Shown in pieces: positions 8,033 through 21,150 of a stretch of DNA of 64,000 nt. The notes beneath the pieces are model-generated. The model was not told the DNA's origin. It saw nothing but the letters and a program-made list of their open reading frames with translations, and made no database searches. Numbering within the stretch: the stretch's first letter is position 1; each line of letters opens with the position of its first letter. The position numbers and the translations under genes were made by a program. The DNA is from Pseudomonas sp. MRSN 12121 (GTDB lineage: Bacteria > Pseudomonadota > Gammaproteobacteria > Pseudomonadales > Pseudomonadaceae): positions 5,541,388-5,605,387 of the forward strand of contig NZ_CP010892.1 of NCBI RefSeq assembly GCF_000931465.1, written 5' to 3'.

Positions 8033-10375
8033 TCAACTCGATACCCGCGACTTGATCACCCACGCCTCGAACGCCGCAGCGGCCAGCGGCCGGCTGATCA
8101 GGTAGCCCTGGGCCGTGTCGCAATGCCAGCGCTCCAGCAGGCGCAGGCTGCGCTCCTGCTCCACCCCTTCGGCCACCACCTTGAGCCCCAGGTTGTGGCT
8201 CATCTCGATGGTGGAACGCACGATCACCGCGTCGCCGCTGGTTTCGTCGAGATTGCGGATGAACGACTGGTCGATCTTCAACTCCTGCACCGGCAGGCGC
8301 TGCAATTGCGCCAGCGACGAATAACCGGTACCGAAGTCGTCCACCGACAGGCTGATGCCGCAGTCGCGCAGGCTCTGCAACATCTCCAGCGCCTGCTCCG
8401 GGTGACGCATGATGGCGCTTTCGGTGATCTCGAAGATCAGTTGCTCGGCAGACAGCTGGTAACGCTGCAGCAGCACACTCACCCGCGCTGCCAGGTCCAC
8501 GCCATGCAGGTCGTCCACCGAGATGTTCAGCGACAGCTGCAGGTGCAGCCCGCGCATGTTCCATTCGGCCAGTTGCCGCATCCCCTCCTCGATCACCCAC
8601 AGGGTCAGGCTGTTCATGCTGCCGGTACGCTCGGCCAGGGGGATGAATTCCGCCGGCGAGACCATGCCGAACTCCGGGTGCTGCCAGCGCAGCAAGGCTT
8701 CGGCCTGGTGCACATGCCCATGGCGCAAGTCCAGCTTGGGCTGGTACAGCAGGAACAACTCGCCTTCCGCCGCGGCGCGGCGCAGGTCGCGGATCAACCC
8801 CACCTGGCGCTGATGGGCCAGGTCGCGATCCTGCTGGTAGATCTGCAAGTAACCGGGCTGCGTCGCAGCATCGTGACGGGCGATGGCGGCGCGGCTGATC
8901 AGCTCTTCCGCCGACTGCCCGTCGGTGGGGTAGACCGCCACGCCGATGCACACCTGGCGCTGCACTTCATCGCCATGGAGGGTCTGGGGCCGGCTCAACA
9001 GCGCATGCAGCCGATCGGCCATGGCCACCGCGCCATCGATCTCGGTGTTTTCCAGCAGCAACAGGAACTCGTTGGCGGTGATGCGCGCGGCGGTGTCCCC
9101 GGCGGACACCGTCTCCGACAGCCGCCGGCTGACTTCGCGCATCATCTGCTCCACGCCCTCCGGGCCCAGGCCTTCGTTGATCGCCCGATAGTCCTCGATC
9201 CCCAGGTACAACAGCACCACGTTGCGTCCGGCACCGATGGCGTTGCTCAGGCGCTCCATCGCCAGCGCGCGGTTGGGCAGGCCGGTCAGCGGGTCGTGCA
9301 GGGCATTGTGGGCCAGTTGCTGCTCGCGACTGGCAATGCCGCTCTGCATGGCGTTGATCGCATCGGCCAGCAGGCCGAACTCGTCGGTGCGCTTGAGCAC
9401 CACCGGCGTCTGGTAGTTGCCCGCCCCGATGCGCTGGGCCGCCTCGGCCAGCACCGTCAACGGCCGCGACACCCGCCGCGCCATGAACAAGGCTCCGGCC
9501 AGCGAGATCACCAGCGCCGCCACGGCGATCGCCAGGAACTCCCGGTCCAGCGGCGCGAAGGCTTGCAAGGCATGATCCAGCGGGCTTTGCAGCAACGCCA
9601 GGACCTGCGGATCGCCGGGATCGCCGGTATTGGCCAGTTGCAACGCCTGGTTGAGAAAACGCTTGCCGTGGGCATCGCTCAATTGCGGTCGCGAACGCCA
9701 GGCCACATTGCGCAAGGTGGTGATGACGGTGGCCCAGAAAATATCCGGCTGGGTGCTGAACAACTCCCCGGCGCGGCCCTCCTGGAGGGTGAGGAAAGAC
9801 ACCTCCAGGTTGCTCATCGAACGCAGCTCGTTGGCGAACAGGTCGTCCATGCGGAACGCCATGACCACCCGGTGCAAATGCTCCGGCGTCAGCACCTGGC
9901 CCTGGACCAGCAGGTAGGGCTGGCCCTTGAGCGCGACGATCAACATGCTCTTGTTCTGCCGCAAGGCCGTGCGCAGCGCCTGGTCGTAAGGAAAATACTC
10001 ATGCTCGGCAATCGCCGGCAGGGTACTGGCGATCACCCGCCCCTCGCCTCCGAGCACGAACAGCTCGCTGCCGCGGGTCCCGGTGCCGTGCTGGCGCAGC
10101 GCTTCGAGAATCTCTTGGGCGTCGCCGTTGATCACCGCCTGGCGAAACTCCGAGTCCACCACCAGCCAGTCCACGCCATAACGCAACCGTCGGCCGCGCA
10201 GCTCGAGCAGACGCTCGAACACCCGGGTGCCCGTCTGCAGTTGTACTTGCGCCTGGTTTTCCACCGCATGGTTGGTCGCGGCCTTGACGGCGAAATACAC
10301 CACCCCGATCACGATCAACAGCAATAGCGCCAGTACCCCGGTGATCCTTACCTGGAATGTATGGCGCCACTTCAT
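8033..10375 (-). CDS. Membrane sensor with degenerate GGDEF and intact EAL domain
   Basis: A 780-residue inner membrane protein predicted to hydrolyse cyclic di-GMP. The order is a membrane segment at about 11-30, a periplasmic sensor of about 250 residues (Cache/CHASE-like size), a second membrane segment near 283-302, HAMP (RRVSRPLTVLAEAAQRIGAG), GGDEF from about 350 and EAL from about 525. The GGDEF signature has become TANEF (AARITANEF, near residue 430), so cyclase activity is not expected and the domain may only bind nucleotide. The EAL domain keeps EALLRW, DDFGTGYSS, KIDQSFI and VAEGVE, consistent with an active phosphodiesterase. It is divergent from the Lon-type gene at 10779. The 107 bases between its stop codon and the lipoprotein gene hold no clear gene. 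Confidence 0.93.
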   Translation of the reverse strand: MKWRHTFQVRITGVLALLLLIVIGVVYFAVKAATNHAVENQAQVQLQTGTRVFERLLELRGRRLRYGVDWLVVDSEFRQAVINGDAQEILEALRQHGTGTRGSELFVLGGEGRVIASTLPAIAEHEYFPYDQALRTALRQNKSMLIVALKGQPYLLVQGQVLTPEHLHRVVMAFRMDDLFANELRSMSNLEVSFLTLQEGRAGELFSTQPDIFWATVITTLRNVAWRSRPQLSDAHGKRFLNQALQLANTGDPGDPQVLALLQSPLDHALQAFAPLDREFLAIAVAALVISLAGALFMARRVSRPLTVLAEAAQRIGAGNYQTPVVLKRTDEFGLLADAINAMQSGIASREQQLAHNALHDPLTGLPNRALAMERLSNAIGAGRNVVLLYLGIEDYRAINEGLGPEGVEQMMREVSRRLSETVSAGDTAARITANEFLLLLENTEIDGAVAMADRLHALLSRPQTLHGDEVQRQVCIGVAVYPTDGQSAEELISRAAIARHDAATQPGYLQIYQQDRDLAHQRQVGLIRDLRRAAAEGELFLLYQPKLDLRHGHVHQAEALLRWQHPEFGMVSPAEFIPLAERTGSMNSLTLWVIEEGMRQLAEWNMRGLHLQLSLNISVDDLHGVDLAARVSVLLQRYQLSAEQLIFEITESAIMRHPEQALEMLQSLRDCGISLSVDDFGTGYSSLAQLQRLPVQELKIDQSFIRNLDETSGDAVIVRSTIEMSHNLGLKVVAEGVEQERSLRLLERWHCDTAQGYLISRPLAAAAFEAWVIKSRVSS

Positions 10376-16374: not shown

Positions 16375-16869
16375 TCAGTCGCGGCTGGCCCGACGGGCCT
16401 TGAAAAATTCGCTCAGCACCGCGCCGCACTCTTCGGCCAGGACCCCGCCCTCGAACAGCACCCGATGGTTGAGGAAGCCCTGGGTGAAGAACTGCCCCTG
16501 GCTCTGCACGATTCCCGCCTTGGGCTCCAGCGCGCCGTACACCACCCGGGCGATGCGCGAATGCACGATCAGCCCGGCGCACATGCTGCACGGCTCCAGG
16601 GTCACATAAAGGGTGCTGCCGGGCAGACGGTAATTGCTGACCGCCTGGGCCGCGGCCCGGATCGCGACCATTTCCGCATGGGCGCTGGGGTCGCTGCCGC
16701 TGATCGGGCAGTTATAGCCGCGACCGATGATTTCCCCGTCCTGCACCAGCACCGCCCCCACCGGCACCTCGCCCAACGCCGCGCCCTGGGCGGCCAGAAC
16801 CAGGGCTTCACGCATGAAGTCCTGGTCGCGGCTGCGATCGATGATCCGGGCCGGGCGAATCTGCCGCAT
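16375..16869 (-). CDS. tadA: tRNA-specific adenosine deaminase TadA
   Basis: A 164-residue zinc deaminase (EC 3.5.4.33) that turns A34 into inosine in tRNA-Arg(ACG). The zinc site is HAE (His64, catalytic Glu66) with PCSMC (Cys94, Cys97). The frame is open further upstream, but I choose the ATG at 16869 because the extra upstream part would overlap the oxidase coding region. From this start the overlap is just TGATG: the start codon shares one base with the oxidase stop. That tight coupling to a copper oxidase is unusual, since the functions are unrelated. Confidence 0.95.
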   Translation of the reverse strand: MRQIRPARIIDRSRDQDFMREALVLAAQGAALGEVPVGAVLVQDGEIIGRGYNCPISGSDPSAHAEMVAIRAAAQAVSNYRLPGSTLYVTLEPCSMCAGLIVHSRIARVVYGALEPKAGIVQSQGQFFTQGFLNHRVLFEGGVLAEECGAVLSEFFKARRASRD

Positions 16870-18245
16870 CAGGCCACCTCGATGGCGGCCATCAGGCCGG
16901 TTTCCATGTGGTCGATCACATGGCAATGGAACATCCACACCCCCGGGTTATCCGCCACCAGCGCCACCCGCGCCCGCTCGTTCTTGCCCAGCAGGTAGGT
17001 GTCGGTGAAGTAGGGGGTGATCTTCTTGCGGTTCGAGGCGATGACCTTGAAGCTCATGCCGTGCAAGTGGATCGGATGCTGGTACTGGGTCATGTTCTTC
17101 AGTTCGAAAATATAGCTCTGGCCTTTCTTGAGCGTCGCGATAGGACGGTCGGCGCAGGTCTTGTCGGTGATGTCCCAGGCCTTGCCGTTGATCTGCCACA
17201 GGCTGGGCGGCTTGCCATTGTCCACGTTCACCGAGACCGAGCCAACCCACTCGAAGTTGAAGTTGAGCTTCTCGGCATTCTCGATATCGGGCTCGGCGAT
17301 CGGATTGGCCGGCAATGCCGGCGGCCATTCGGTCGGCGCATCGCTGTTGGCCACCGAACGGAAAGTGCCGAGGCGCACCGGGCCGTTGCGCAACGACAGC
17401 TCTTCGCCAGCGGGCGGCGCCTTGATCGCCAGGCAGATGCGCATGCCCGGCCCCAGCCAATACTCCTTGCCCAGCGGACGCGGCTCGATGGGGTTGCCGT
17501 CCAGGGCGTAGATCCGGGCGTCGACATCAGGAATGTTGATGCGGTAGGTCAGGGTGTTGTCCAGGTTGAGCAGGCGCACGCGGGTGATCTGCCCGGCCGG
17601 AATCTCCACCACAGCCTGGGGCACGCCGTTGATGGTCGACAGACGCCCCGCCGTACCGCCACGCGCCGCCTCGCGGGGAATGCTGAACGGCACGAAAGCG
17701 CCCTCTTCATCCACATGCCAGCTTTTCAGGCTCAAGGTGCGTTCGTAGGTGAAGCCAGTGGGTTCGCGCTCCTCGATGATCAGCGGGCCGACCAGGCCGC
17801 GCCCCAGCTCTTCGCTGCTGTTGACGTGCGGGTGATACCAGTAGCTGCCGGCGTCCGGCACGCGGAACTTGTAGTCGAAATACTCGCCCGGCATGACCGG
17901 CAACTGCGAAACGTAAGGCACGCCGTCCATTTCCAGCGGCAGGCGGATACCGTGCCAGTGAATGGTGGTGGCCACCGGCAGGTGGTTGATGAATCGTACC
18001 CGCAACCACTCGCCCTGGCGTACCCGCAGTTCGGTGCCCGGCGCGGAAGGACCGAAAGCCCAGGCCTCGGTCTTGTGGCCCGGCACCAGCTCCACATCCA
18101 GTGGCGCGGCGATCAGCTGATAATCATGGCCCGCCTCGGCGTCGGCCATCTTGCCCAGCCAGTAGCGCGACGCGCCACCGGCGCCCACGCCAACCACTGC
18201 AAGACCGGCCAGACCACCAAGTATCTGTCGACGGGTAAAGGACAT
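16869..18245 (-). CDS. Tat-exported multicopper oxidase
   Basis: A 458-residue periplasmic laccase/CopA-CueO-like oxidase. A Tat signal with TRRQILGG at residues 4-11 is followed by GLAGLAVVGVGAGGA. All four copper-binding clusters are present: HWHG at 96-99, YWYHPH at 135-140, HPIHLHG at 390-396 and HCHVIDHMETG at 440-450. The type 1 axial position is Met (HMETG). It lacks the methionine-rich insert of CueO, so the substrate (copper, phenolics or other) is open. It is the first gene of a two-gene unit with tadA. The 230 bases upstream to 18476 contain no gene I can support. Confidence 0.93.
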   Translation of the reverse strand: MSFTRRQILGGLAGLAVVGVGAGGASRYWLGKMADAEAGHDYQLIAAPLDVELVPGHKTEAWAFGPSAPGTELRVRQGEWLRVRFINHLPVATTIHWHGIRLPLEMDGVPYVSQLPVMPGEYFDYKFRVPDAGSYWYHPHVNSSEELGRGLVGPLIIEEREPTGFTYERTLSLKSWHVDEEGAFVPFSIPREAARGGTAGRLSTINGVPQAVVEIPAGQITRVRLLNLDNTLTYRINIPDVDARIYALDGNPIEPRPLGKEYWLGPGMRICLAIKAPPAGEELSLRNGPVRLGTFRSVANSDAPTEWPPALPANPIAEPDIENAEKLNFNFEWVGSVSVNVDNGKPPSLWQINGKAWDITDKTCADRPIATLKKGQSYIFELKNMTQYQHPIHLHGMSFKVIASNRKKITPYFTDTYLLGKNERARVALVADNPGVWMFHCHVIDHMETGLMAAIEVA

Positions 18246-18475: not shown

Positions 18476-18997
18476 TCAGCCGAGCAAGGCCATCAGTTCA
18501 TGGCTCGGCGGCCCCACCCGCCGGGCCTCCTTGGCGACGTTCACCGACTGCGCGACCCGCGCCACTTCGATCACCGGATGTTGCAGTTCGTAGCCGCCCC
18601 GGGCGTCGAGCCAGCTGAGGACTTCCGCCAGGTGCCAGAGCGAGGCGCTGCCCTCGTGGATCGCCAGGGGGAAGCTGCCGGCATGGTTGAGCATCAGCTT
18701 GCGCATGTTCTGCCGGGACACGCCGACGATATCGGCGATTTCGCTCAGGCCGACGAAATCCGGGCTGGCCTCGACCAGCCGCGCATCCGGGATGATTCGC
18801 TTGATGTCGCCCAGGGCGCTGAGCAGGGCCGCTTCGCCGCTCTCGGCCTCGCGGCTGAACTCCAGCGCCAGGCGCCCCGCCAGCCCGGTGCCGACCAGGG
18901 CATCGGTGCAACCGCCGGCGCCAAGACGCTCGACCAGCGCGTCCGGATCGCAATCATCGGCCGGCAGCAGGTAGTTGAGGGTGAACAGGTACTCCAT
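18476..18997 (-). CDS. HTH DNA-binding protein, putative antitoxin/autoregulator
   Basis: A 173-residue protein. Residues 1-70 look like a small alpha/beta domain (MEYLFTLNYLLPADDCDPDA), and residues 84-102 form a helix-turn-helix of the AlpA/excisionase style (LSEIADIVGVSRQNMRKLM), followed by a wing (SFPLAIHEGSASLWHLAEVL). I take the ATG at 18997, which has GGGAG 9 bases upstream embedded in the last codons of the preceding gene. The gap to that gene is 5 bases, so the two are co-translated. The order small basic protein then DNA-binding protein is that of HicAB-type toxin-antitoxin loci. I cannot name a family for the whole protein; antitoxin/repressor is an inference from context. Confidence 0.75.
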   Translation of the reverse strand: MEYLFTLNYLLPADDCDPDALVERLGAGGCTDALVGTGLAGRLALEFSREAESGEAALLSALGDIKRIIPDARLVEASPDFVGLSEIADIVGVSRQNMRKLMLNHAGSFPLAIHEGSASLWHLAEVLSWLDARGGYELQHPVIEVARVAQSVNVAKEARRVGPPSHELMALLG

Positions 18998-19002
18998 GAT
19001 CG

Positions 19003-19281
19003 TTACTCCCGAGCAGGTTGCGGGTACTTCCCGCCGCGCAGCTGGTTCAGCGTGCAGTTGTCGACGACCCGGCACAAAGCGCGGGCATGCTGGGCAGGAT
19101 TTTTTGGCGAGCACCACACACTGGTGATGCAGAACTCGCCGCAACGACACACCTCGCTGTTGTAGGGGCAATAGATCTTGCCCCAGGCATGACCGCCGCC
19201 GACTTCGACACGCCAGCCCTGCCATTCGGCGTAGCGCAGGGCCATTTCAATGTCTTTCTTGGGATGAGGTGTGCGAGCCAT
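19003..19281 (-). CDS. Small cysteine-rich protein, HicA-like toxin candidate
   Basis: A 92-residue protein. KKDIEMALRYAEWQGWRVEV followed by GGGHAWGKIYCP recalls the HicA double-stranded-RNA-binding fold, in which a Gly-Ser-His motif carries the catalytic His; here His31 sits in GGGHAWG. Unlike ordinary HicA (about 60-80 residues) it carries seven cysteines (38, 45, 47, 51, 57, 70, 76), suggesting a metal site. The ATG at 19281 has GGAGG seven bases upstream. It is first in a two-gene unit, with a triple half-site operator 26 to 49 bases upstream. HicA-like function is inferred, not shown. Confidence 0.7.
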   Translation of the reverse strand: MARTPHPKKDIEMALRYAEWQGWRVEVGGGHAWGKIYCPYNSEVCRCGEFCITSVWCSPKNPAQHARALCRVVDNCTLNQLRGGKYPQPARE

Positions 19282-19306
19282 CCATGGCCTCCAGTCTCGT
19301 CAACAA

Positions 19307-19330
19307 TGACAAGGTTGTCAACTGACAACC
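19307..19330. promoter_or_regulatory. Operator of alternating TGACAA/TTGTCA half-sites
   Basis: Three hexamers, TGACAA-GG-TTGTCA-AC-TGACAA, alternate in direction with 2-base spacing. The right pair extends to an 8-bp inverted repeat, GGTTGTCA-AC-TGACAACC. It lies just upstream of the HicA-like gene, where an autoregulating HTH protein would be expected to bind. Confidence 0.65.
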
Positions 19331-19495: not shown

Positions 19496-19531
19496 AATGG
19501 CGATCGACACCCAAAGGTCTCGATCGCCATT
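19496..19531 (-). terminator. Terminator of the guaBA unit
   Basis: AATGGCGATCGA and TCGATCGCCATT form a perfect 12-bp stem with a 12-base loop, 42 bases beyond the guaA stop codon. Read on the minus strand it is followed by a T-rich tract (TGTGTTT). Confidence 0.8.
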
Positions 19532-19572: not shown

Positions 19573-21150
19573 TCATTCCCACTCGATAGTGGCTGGCGGC
19601 TTGCTCGACACGTCGTAGGTGACGCGGGAGATGCCTTCGATTTCGTTGATGATCCGGCCGCTGACGGTTTCCAGCAACTCGTAAGGCAGGTGCGCCCAAC
19701 GTGCGGTCATGAAGTCGATGGTTTCCACGGCACGCAGGGCCACGACCCAGGCGTAACGACGGCCGTCACCGACCACGCCCACCGATTTCACCGGCTGGAA
19801 CACCACGAACGCCTGGCTGACCTTGTGGTACCAGTCGGCCTTGCGCAGCTCTTCGATGAAGATGTGGTCGGCGCGACGCAGCAGGTCGGCGTATTCCTTC
19901 TTCACTTCGCCGAGGATGCGCACGCCCAGGCCCGGACCCGGGAACGGGTGACGGTAGACCATGTCGTACGGCAGGCCCAGCTCCAGGCCCAGGCGACGGA
20001 CTTCGTCCTTGAACAGCTCGCGCAGCGGCTCGACCAGCTTGAGGTTCATTTCTTCCGGCAGGCCGCCCACGTTGTGGTGCGACTTGATCACGTGGGCCTT
20101 GCCGCTCTTGGCGCCGGCCGACTCGATCACGTCCGGGTAGATGGTGCCCTGGGCCAGGAACTTGATGTTTTCCAGCTTGCAGGACTCGGCGTCGAACACG
20201 TCGATGAAAGTCCGGCCGATGATCTTGCGCTTCTTCTCCGGGTCGGCTTCGCCGGCCAGGTTGTTGAGGAACTGCTCTTCCGCGTTGGCGCGGATCACCT
20301 TGACGCCCATGTTCTCGGCGAACATGGCCATCACTTGCTCGCCCTCGTGCAGGCGCAGCAGGCCGTTGTCGACGAATACGCAGGTCAGCTGGTCGCCGAT
20401 GGCCTTGTGCAGCAGGGCCGCGACCACCGAGGAGTCAACACCGCCGGACAGGCCGAGCAGCACGTTGTCGGTGCCGACCTGGGCACGGATCTGGGCGATG
20501 GCGTCGTCGGCGATATGCGACGGCGTCCACAGGGCTTCGCAGCCGCAGATGTCGAGGATGAAGCGCGACAGGATGCGACCGCCCTGCTTGGTGTGGGTCA
20601 CTTCCGGGTGGAACTGCACGCCGTAGTAGCGCAGGTCGTCGTTGAACATGCCAGCGATCGGGCAGCTCGGGGTGCTGGCCAGGATGTGGAAGTCTTCCGG
20701 CATCTTGGTGACCTTGTCACCGTGGCTCATCCATACGTCGAGGCCGAACAGGCCGTCGGCGTCCACGTGGTCTTCGATGCCGTCCAGCAGGCGGCTCTTG
20801 CCGACCACGTCGACGCGGGCATAACCGAATTCACGCAGCTCTGAACCTTCGACCTTGCCGCCCATCTGCTCGGCCATGGTCTGCATGCCGTAGCAGATAC
20901 CGAAGACCGGTACGCCCAGGTCGAACACCGCTTGCGGGCAGCGCGGGCTGTTGGCTTCGTGCACGGACTCGGGGCCGCCGGCGAGAATGACACCTTTGGG
21001 GGCGAATTCGCGAATCGCTTCGTCGTCCATGTCGAACGGATGCAGTTCGCAGTACACGCCGATTTCACGCACGCGACGAGCGATCAATTGGGTGTACTGG
21101 GAACCGAAATCGAGGATCAGGATACGGTGAGCGTGAATGTCGAGGGCCAT
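19573..21150 (-). CDS. guaA: GMP synthase (glutamine-hydrolysing)
   Basis: A 525-residue enzyme (EC 6.3.5.2) that aminates XMP to GMP using glutamine. The class I amidotransferase comes first, with nucleophile Cys86 in GICYGMQ. The ATP pyrophosphatase P-loop LSGGVDSSV follows near 233, and the dimerisation domain ends in the invariant IEWE. It follows guaB on the same strand with a 100-base gap. The 3' end of guaA is a known integration site of genomic islands; the HTH/HicA-like pair lies just beyond it. Confidence 0.98.

Follow-up and report, generated by a model that had tools for sequence, protein, structure and literature searches.

The closest described systems to the two genes studied here are the PADLOC candidate PDC-M06, the HicAB modules, and the AlpA/excisionase proteins, represented by the excisionase of GIsul2. 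PDC is the label used in PADLOC for phage-defence candidates (PMC11514479). Among HicAB-like pairs, gp91/gp90 of the mycobacteriophage Adephagia has been tested (PMC11373665). For GIsul2, the octamer GAGTGGGA has been reported as the integration site in guaA (PMC9376610).

In this study, a gene pair of Pseudomonas sp. MRSN 12121, here called A and B, was analysed computationally together with its relatives. The window, meaning the whole stretch of DNA that was analysed, is 64 kb long. The pair is probably a type II toxin-antitoxin-like module derived from integrative elements of the guaA 3' end, in which A would be the toxin and B the antitoxin and repressor.

Identity of the gene pair

In the window, the minus strand carries guaA, a hairpin, A, B and a multicopper oxidase gene, in that order:

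19573-21150, minus strand: guaA, upstream neighbour of the pair
about 19496-19531: strong hairpin (fold z -4.2) between guaA and the pair
19003..19281, minus strand: gene A, 92 aa, putative toxin of the PDC-M06A / phrog_5923 family
18476..18997, minus strand: gene B, 173 aa, putative antitoxin and autorepressor of the PDC-M06B / phrog_2620 family
16869-18245, minus strand: multicopper oxidase gene, downstream of B

The hairpin is probably the terminator of guaA and separates guaA from the pair. The original prediction, made from the sequence, described a 92-residue reading frame with GGGHAWG and seven cysteines, followed after 5 bases by a 173-residue HTH protein. Both descriptions were borne out: A contains VGGGHAWG and cysteines at positions 38, 45, 47, 51, 57, 70 and 76, its stop lies 5 nt from the start of B, and B occupies a 173-aa frame at 18476-18997 of the minus strand. 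A and B are real genes, since they are strictly paired in more than 120 loci and have the low dN/dS of purifying selection (0.10-0.22 for A and 0.06-0.22 for B).

A matched six PADLOC profiles named PDC-M06A (best 6e-48) as well as phrog_5923; B matched PDC-M06B (1.7e-75) and phrog_2620, which PHROGs labels "excisionase and transcriptional regulator". Both PADLOC protein profiles were matched over nearly their full length, by adjacent genes. The pair is thus already catalogued as the phage-defence candidate PDC-M06, with candidate status only and with no mechanism described there. Searches of Pfam and NCBIfam gave no credible match for A or B, and a PDB sequence search with the two proteins gave nothing usable. 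Four matches to canonical HicA (PF07927) were found elsewhere in the same genome, so the pair is additional to the ordinary HicA genes.

Distribution and mobile context

As to presence across strains, raised in the original prediction, 69 of 399 Pseudomonas genomes and 28 of 397 Pseudomonadota genomes contain A. The pair is also found on cyanobacterial, planctomycete and Rhodobacterales plasmids, including a conjugative Paracoccus plasmid, and in SSU5-type phage-plasmids. Gordonia phages have it as well, close to the integrase or the immunity repressor. The record of Cyrano, a phage of E. coli LF82, annotates the two genes as HicA and HicB; in SSU5 and Cyrano (L010, L011), they stand among replication and recombination genes. 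Where A is clear in Pseudomonadota, the distance from A to the B that follows it ranges from a few bases to tens of bases, L152 being the single locus with a wider gap; in the main clade, the distance is mostly 3-5 bases.

A scan of genome contigs confirmed at least 543 relatives, from which 80 loci were kept. The pair lies near the guaA 3' end in 51 of these 80, and a tyrosine integrase lies upstream of it in 47, in the order guaA-int-A-B. A separate convergent alpA gene often follows B in such islands. MRSN 12121 has the corresponding site:

19577..19584, minus strand: octamer GAGTGGGA at the guaA 3' end, the likely reason that the pair sits here

An integrase remnant was not found between guaA and A in the window. 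In two Pseudomonas relatives (L157, L177), the multicopper oxidase gene directly follows guaA and there is no pair. The guaA site, the island loci and the pair-less relatives indicate that the pair most likely arrived on a guaA-targeting element and was then retained.

Some pair-bearing guaA islands contain TIR/Thoeris-like genes, TIR-TM, AbiJ, and helicases matching Mokosh models. For example, several TIR/Thoeris ThsB-like proteins and a TIR-TM protein are encoded between guaA and the pair in one genome (G006, locus L188, about 6-12 kb). In a Diaphorobacter guaA island (L030), an AbiJ-like protein is encoded at 8196-8960, a few genes downstream of int-A-B-alpA, with a RadC-like gene nearby.

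Defence genes of these kinds in the islands, and the match of both proteins to PDC-M06A/B, speak for a dedicated anti-phage system, in which a phage would be sensed by B or would inactivate it and A would then act abortively. This explanation is compatible with a toxin-antitoxin mechanism. However, PDC denotes a candidate only, and no mention of PDC-M06 was found in the literature searched. Moreover, phages and plasmids also carry the pair, which is therefore not purely a host defence. We consider a dedicated defence role possible, though somewhat doubtful.

Operator and promoter

The region upstream of A contains the following elements:

19313..19330, minus strand: operator, inverted repeat GGTTGTCA-GT-TGACAACC, found by comparison of upstream regions and lying over the -35 box
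19316..19321, minus strand: -35 element TTGACA, inside the operator, a perfect -35 as read from the sequence
19293..19298, minus strand: candidate -10 GAGACT, 17 nt from the -35, weak and below the promoter-scan threshold
19288..19292, minus strand: Shine-Dalgarno GGAGG of gene A, read from the sequence and kept in relatives
19307..19312, plus strand: extra TGACAA, taken earlier as a third half-site, not conserved and left out of the operator

The original prediction had proposed an operator of three half-sites. The string TGACAA-GG-TTGTCA-AC-TGACAA is indeed present at 19307-19328, where 0 matches are expected in shuffled sequence; its extra TGACAA at 19307-19312 recurs in 0 of 87 other loci. 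The triple arrangement was therefore rejected as a private coincidence of the MRSN 12121 copy, and the conserved upstream feature is a single palindrome, GGTTGTCA-NN-TGACAACC, at 19313-19330. Of 82 distinct upstream sequences, 74 carried its core GTTGTC-N4-GACAAC, at a distance of 27-33 nt (mostly 31-33) ahead of the start codon. The spacer T that precedes TGACA, and so completes TTGACA, was kept in 73 of the 74 spacers. Relatives have a -10-like CATACT or GATACT 16-17 nt past the -35, and a divergent clade has GTTGACA-NN-TGTCAAC in place of the main-clade palindrome.

Among distinct loci, the palindrome lies within 100 nt upstream in 121 of the 124 with an HTH-bearing partner, versus 0 of the 6 with an HTH-less one (Fisher p 1.4e-8, a value that overstates independence, the loci being related); it occurs in 0 of 1200 shuffled upstream sequences. 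A DNA-binding domain in B together with an operator over the promoter, as in type II toxin-antitoxin modules, is thus indicated by sequence and model evidence.

A wider B regulon was also considered and rejected: the genome holds only two GTTGTCN4GACAAC sites, no more than a control pattern, and one of them is the A/B operator. Going by these site counts, B probably controls little besides its own operon.

Domains of protein B

The structural model of B (pLDDT 93) consists of a ferredoxin-like domain followed by a winged HTH:

18761..18997, minus strand: B residues 1-79, ferredoxin-like domain (beta-alpha-beta-beta-alpha-beta), putative A-binding domain
18593..18760, minus strand: B residues 80-135, AlpA/excisionase-type winged HTH, putative operator-binding domain

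The HTH aligned with the GIsul2 excisionase 8c3t (Z 6.9, rmsd 2.6, 55 residues aligned). The similarity is weak in sequence, where Pfam AlpA was touched by 15 of 45 B members (best 0.0013). The N-terminal domain was compared with HicB, which has a partial RNase H fold; the b-a-b-b-a-b order of the model differs from it, and the missing structural match would not by itself exclude kinship. HicB was not listed in the VIA-align search with B, which is not evidence of its absence.

At six loci, A is followed by a partner of 82-110 aa that resembles the B N-domain and has no HTH:

L098 and L231: viral contigs
L016: planctomycete plasmid
L012: phage Mao1
L223 and L224: Gordonia phages

Two of these partners, P0005 (L098) and P0004 (L016), match phrog_2620 only at positions 1-76 (9e-17 and 1.5e-4), while the actinophage partners were assigned as N-domains by size, position and pattern. 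A truncated B on a MAG contig (L078) likewise still has the N-domain and nothing more of B. Since the operator is found only where the partner has an HTH, and the N-domain is always kept, the sequence comparison indicates that the N-domain always accompanies A and that the HTH goes with the operator.

Five Pseudomonas species encode a stand-alone B N-domain of about 80-90 aa with neither A nor HTH (L241, L242, L243 and L245, and L244 with a longer frame). This protein may be a relic of truncation, or it may serve independently as an antidote.

The AlpA-like fold raises the question of whether the pair controls the excision of guaA-targeting elements, with B as an AlpA/Xis-type directionality factor, A as its modulator, and the palindrome as a regulatory site of the integrase region. 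The resemblance to 8c3t, the PHROGs label of the B family, and the integrase just upstream in 47 of the 80 loci kept from at least 543 relatives would all suit such a role. However, many of these elements have their own convergent AlpA gene right after B, and the pair persists without an integrase in MRSN 12121 and on plasmids and phage-plasmids lacking an adjacent one. The existence of HTH-less partners and the presence of just two GTTGTCN4GACAAC sites in the genome, one of them the A/B operator, also count against it. Excision control is thus very unlikely.

Protein A and the HicA question

Rows from annotated phage and plasmid records were excluded from the alignments used for structure prediction. 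The model of A (41-row alignment, pLDDT 79) has the order alpha-beta-beta-beta-alpha, and strands 2 and 3 are separated by an insert that contains Cys. Foldseek returned no significant match for this model. In VIA-align, E. coli HicA (6hpb_A) ranked fourth (Z 4.0, rmsd 2.9, 54 of 57 residues aligned), on a par with unrelated folds. In hhalign, the alignment of the A and HicA profiles covered 20 columns, the last of them at the catalytic His, with a probability of 2.6-7%; one comparison gave E 0.005-0.018. After column shuffling, 0 of 200 scored as high as the real comparison, in a repeat of the control that used trimmed columns and another parser after an earlier run had contained an outlying shuffled score of 130. 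At the curated cut-off of PF07927, A had no match, and only 1 of 49 family members touched Pfam HicA (E 0.32).

The description of A as HicA-like in the original prediction is only suggestive: the predicted alpha-beta-beta-beta-alpha order and His31, which is aligned with the catalytic His of HicA, fit it, but no library match reaches significance. Kinship with HicA is plausible, the statistical similarity being marginal. Membership in canonical HicAB was considered and is unestablished, given the lack of a PF07927 or Foldseek match and a Z of 4.0 tied with unrelated folds. Adephagia gp91/gp90 was examined as a relative with known toxicity and rejected: these proteins match neither the A nor the B family, so their toxicity data are not transferable to the pair.

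Among 122 distinct A sequences, H6 was conserved in 121, H31 in 118, C38 in 120 and C76 in 118; at position 51, 113 have Cys and the remaining 9 have His. The family core of A thus consists of H6, H31, C38, C/H51 and C76. All seven cysteines noted at the outset are present in MRSN 12121, but only C38, C/H51 and C76 are family-wide; C45 and C47 are specific to the main clade, and in other family members C57 and C70 are mostly replaced. The Cys/His exchange at position 51 suggests a metal ligand, and the conservation pattern suggests that C38, C/H51 and C76 may form a metal site. His31 is the likely catalytic residue. It is absent in four phage or viral relatives, and the actinophage branch lacks it; should His31 be the catalytic residue, the actinophage proteins either act in another way or are inactive.

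Decay of the pair

Among the 399 Pseudomonas genomes, all 69 that bear A have a full-length B, and intact A without intact B was found in 0. Ten Pseudomonas loci in the same set keep B intact with A broken or lost, a count to be read with the relatedness of the genomes and possible draft-assembly errors in some A lesions in mind. In six of the ten, A is frameshifted, stopped or interrupted (G254, G136, G280, G312, G381 and G296; L232-L236 and L238); in the other four, A is gone or a mere remnant ahead of intact B (G066, G199, G282 and G322; L247-L250), G066 and G322 (L247 and L250) probably sharing one deletion. Were the two genes equally fragile, decay would be biased towards B, which is the longer target. 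Loss of the toxin with retention of the antitoxin, 10 versus 0 in Pseudomonas, is a mark of type II modules, and decay of A but not B is the pattern expected of a toxin and its antidote. In one genome (G023; L008 and L239), a second, degraded B with a stop at about residue 97 occurs without A, in addition to an intact pair elsewhere in that genome.

The retention of B alone would also fit a regulatory role of its own. It has to be weighed whether B is a stand-alone regulator and A its non-toxic, metal-binding co-regulator, as some genomes keep B alone and the conserved C38, C/H51, C76 and H6 of A look like metal ligands; moreover, Shi of ICEclc, which is HicA-like, is not toxic alone (PMC6812849). 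However, no Pseudomonas genome among the 399 searched keeps A alone, and the minimal unit is A plus the N-domain, with the HTH dropped, which is unexpected of a pure regulator. A non-toxic regulator pair is thus quite unlikely.

The original prediction of a self-repressing toxin-antitoxin module proved the best reading of the locus, in view of the strict pairing, the short gap, the operator over the -35 that occurs only with an HTH partner, and the decay of A but not B. The one-sided decay, the HTH-less partners and the absence of the operator from their loci indicate that the N-domain of B probably neutralises A, and that its AlpA-like HTH probably represses the operon.

Proposed mechanism and significance

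Computation supports the pairing, the operator and its association with the HTH, the split of domains, one-sided decay, purifying selection and mobile context. In the proposed mechanism, an element targeting the guaA 3' end would have brought the pair; the integrase would later have been lost and the pair kept. A would be a small growth-arresting toxin, probably HicA-style with a dsRBD-like fold and perhaps acting on RNA. The ferredoxin-like N-domain of B would bind and block A, and the AlpA-type winged HTH would bind the palindrome over the -35 and repress the operon. If B were lost or diluted, e.g., by element loss or phage takeover, A would be freed and the cell arrested. Toxicity, neutralisation, RNA cleavage and the trigger are inferred; the benefit may be maintenance of the element or defence against phages.

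A more far-reaching proposal is that the pair represents a novel, phage-triggered abortive family of Pseudomonadota, cyanobacterial and planctomycete plasmids, and actinophages, combining a HicA-like fold and a metal site (C38, C/H51, C76, perhaps H6) with a HicB-unrelated ferredoxin-like antidote and an optional AlpA-type repressor. We regard this as unlikely in its entirety.

PDC-M06, so far a defence-database candidate without a mechanism, now has a testable proposal with a putative toxin gene, a putative neutralising domain and a candidate DNA site. The natural HTH-less partners split the two jobs of the antitoxin without engineering. If A is an RNA-acting HicA-type protein, an antitoxin domain of a different fold would have been recruited against it, and the possible metal site, if true, would add a new control. 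Membership in the A/B family also explains the HicAB annotation of SSU5-type phage-plasmids.

Comparison with known systems

The pair shares with PDC-M06 of PADLOC its two-gene composition, both MRSN 12121 proteins matching near-full profiles; the present analysis adds the operator and the division of B into domains, and it describes the HTH-less variants, the decay of A but not B, and the linkage to guaA. AlpA/excisionase proteins such as that of GIsul2 (8c3t) resemble B in its modelled C-terminal winged HTH, and a guaA-targeting integrase is a neighbour in both cases. Unlike these, B is extended by an N-domain and is constantly accompanied by A, and the islands often hold an AlpA of their own.

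The pair resembles HicAB in style. Both have a small first-gene protein with a G-x-H motif and an a-b-b-b-a order, which for A is predicted, and both have a second-gene partner composed of an N-domain and a DNA-binding C-domain, with likely self-repression (reviewed in PMC11594946); Cyrano and some Gordonia phages annotate the A/B relatives as HicA/HicB. In contrast to HicA, A has no Pfam HicA match, and an insert with Cys residues separates its strands 2 and 3. The N-domain of B is ferredoxin-like in the model, whereas that of HicB is a partial RNase H fold, and the HTH of B is AlpA-like.
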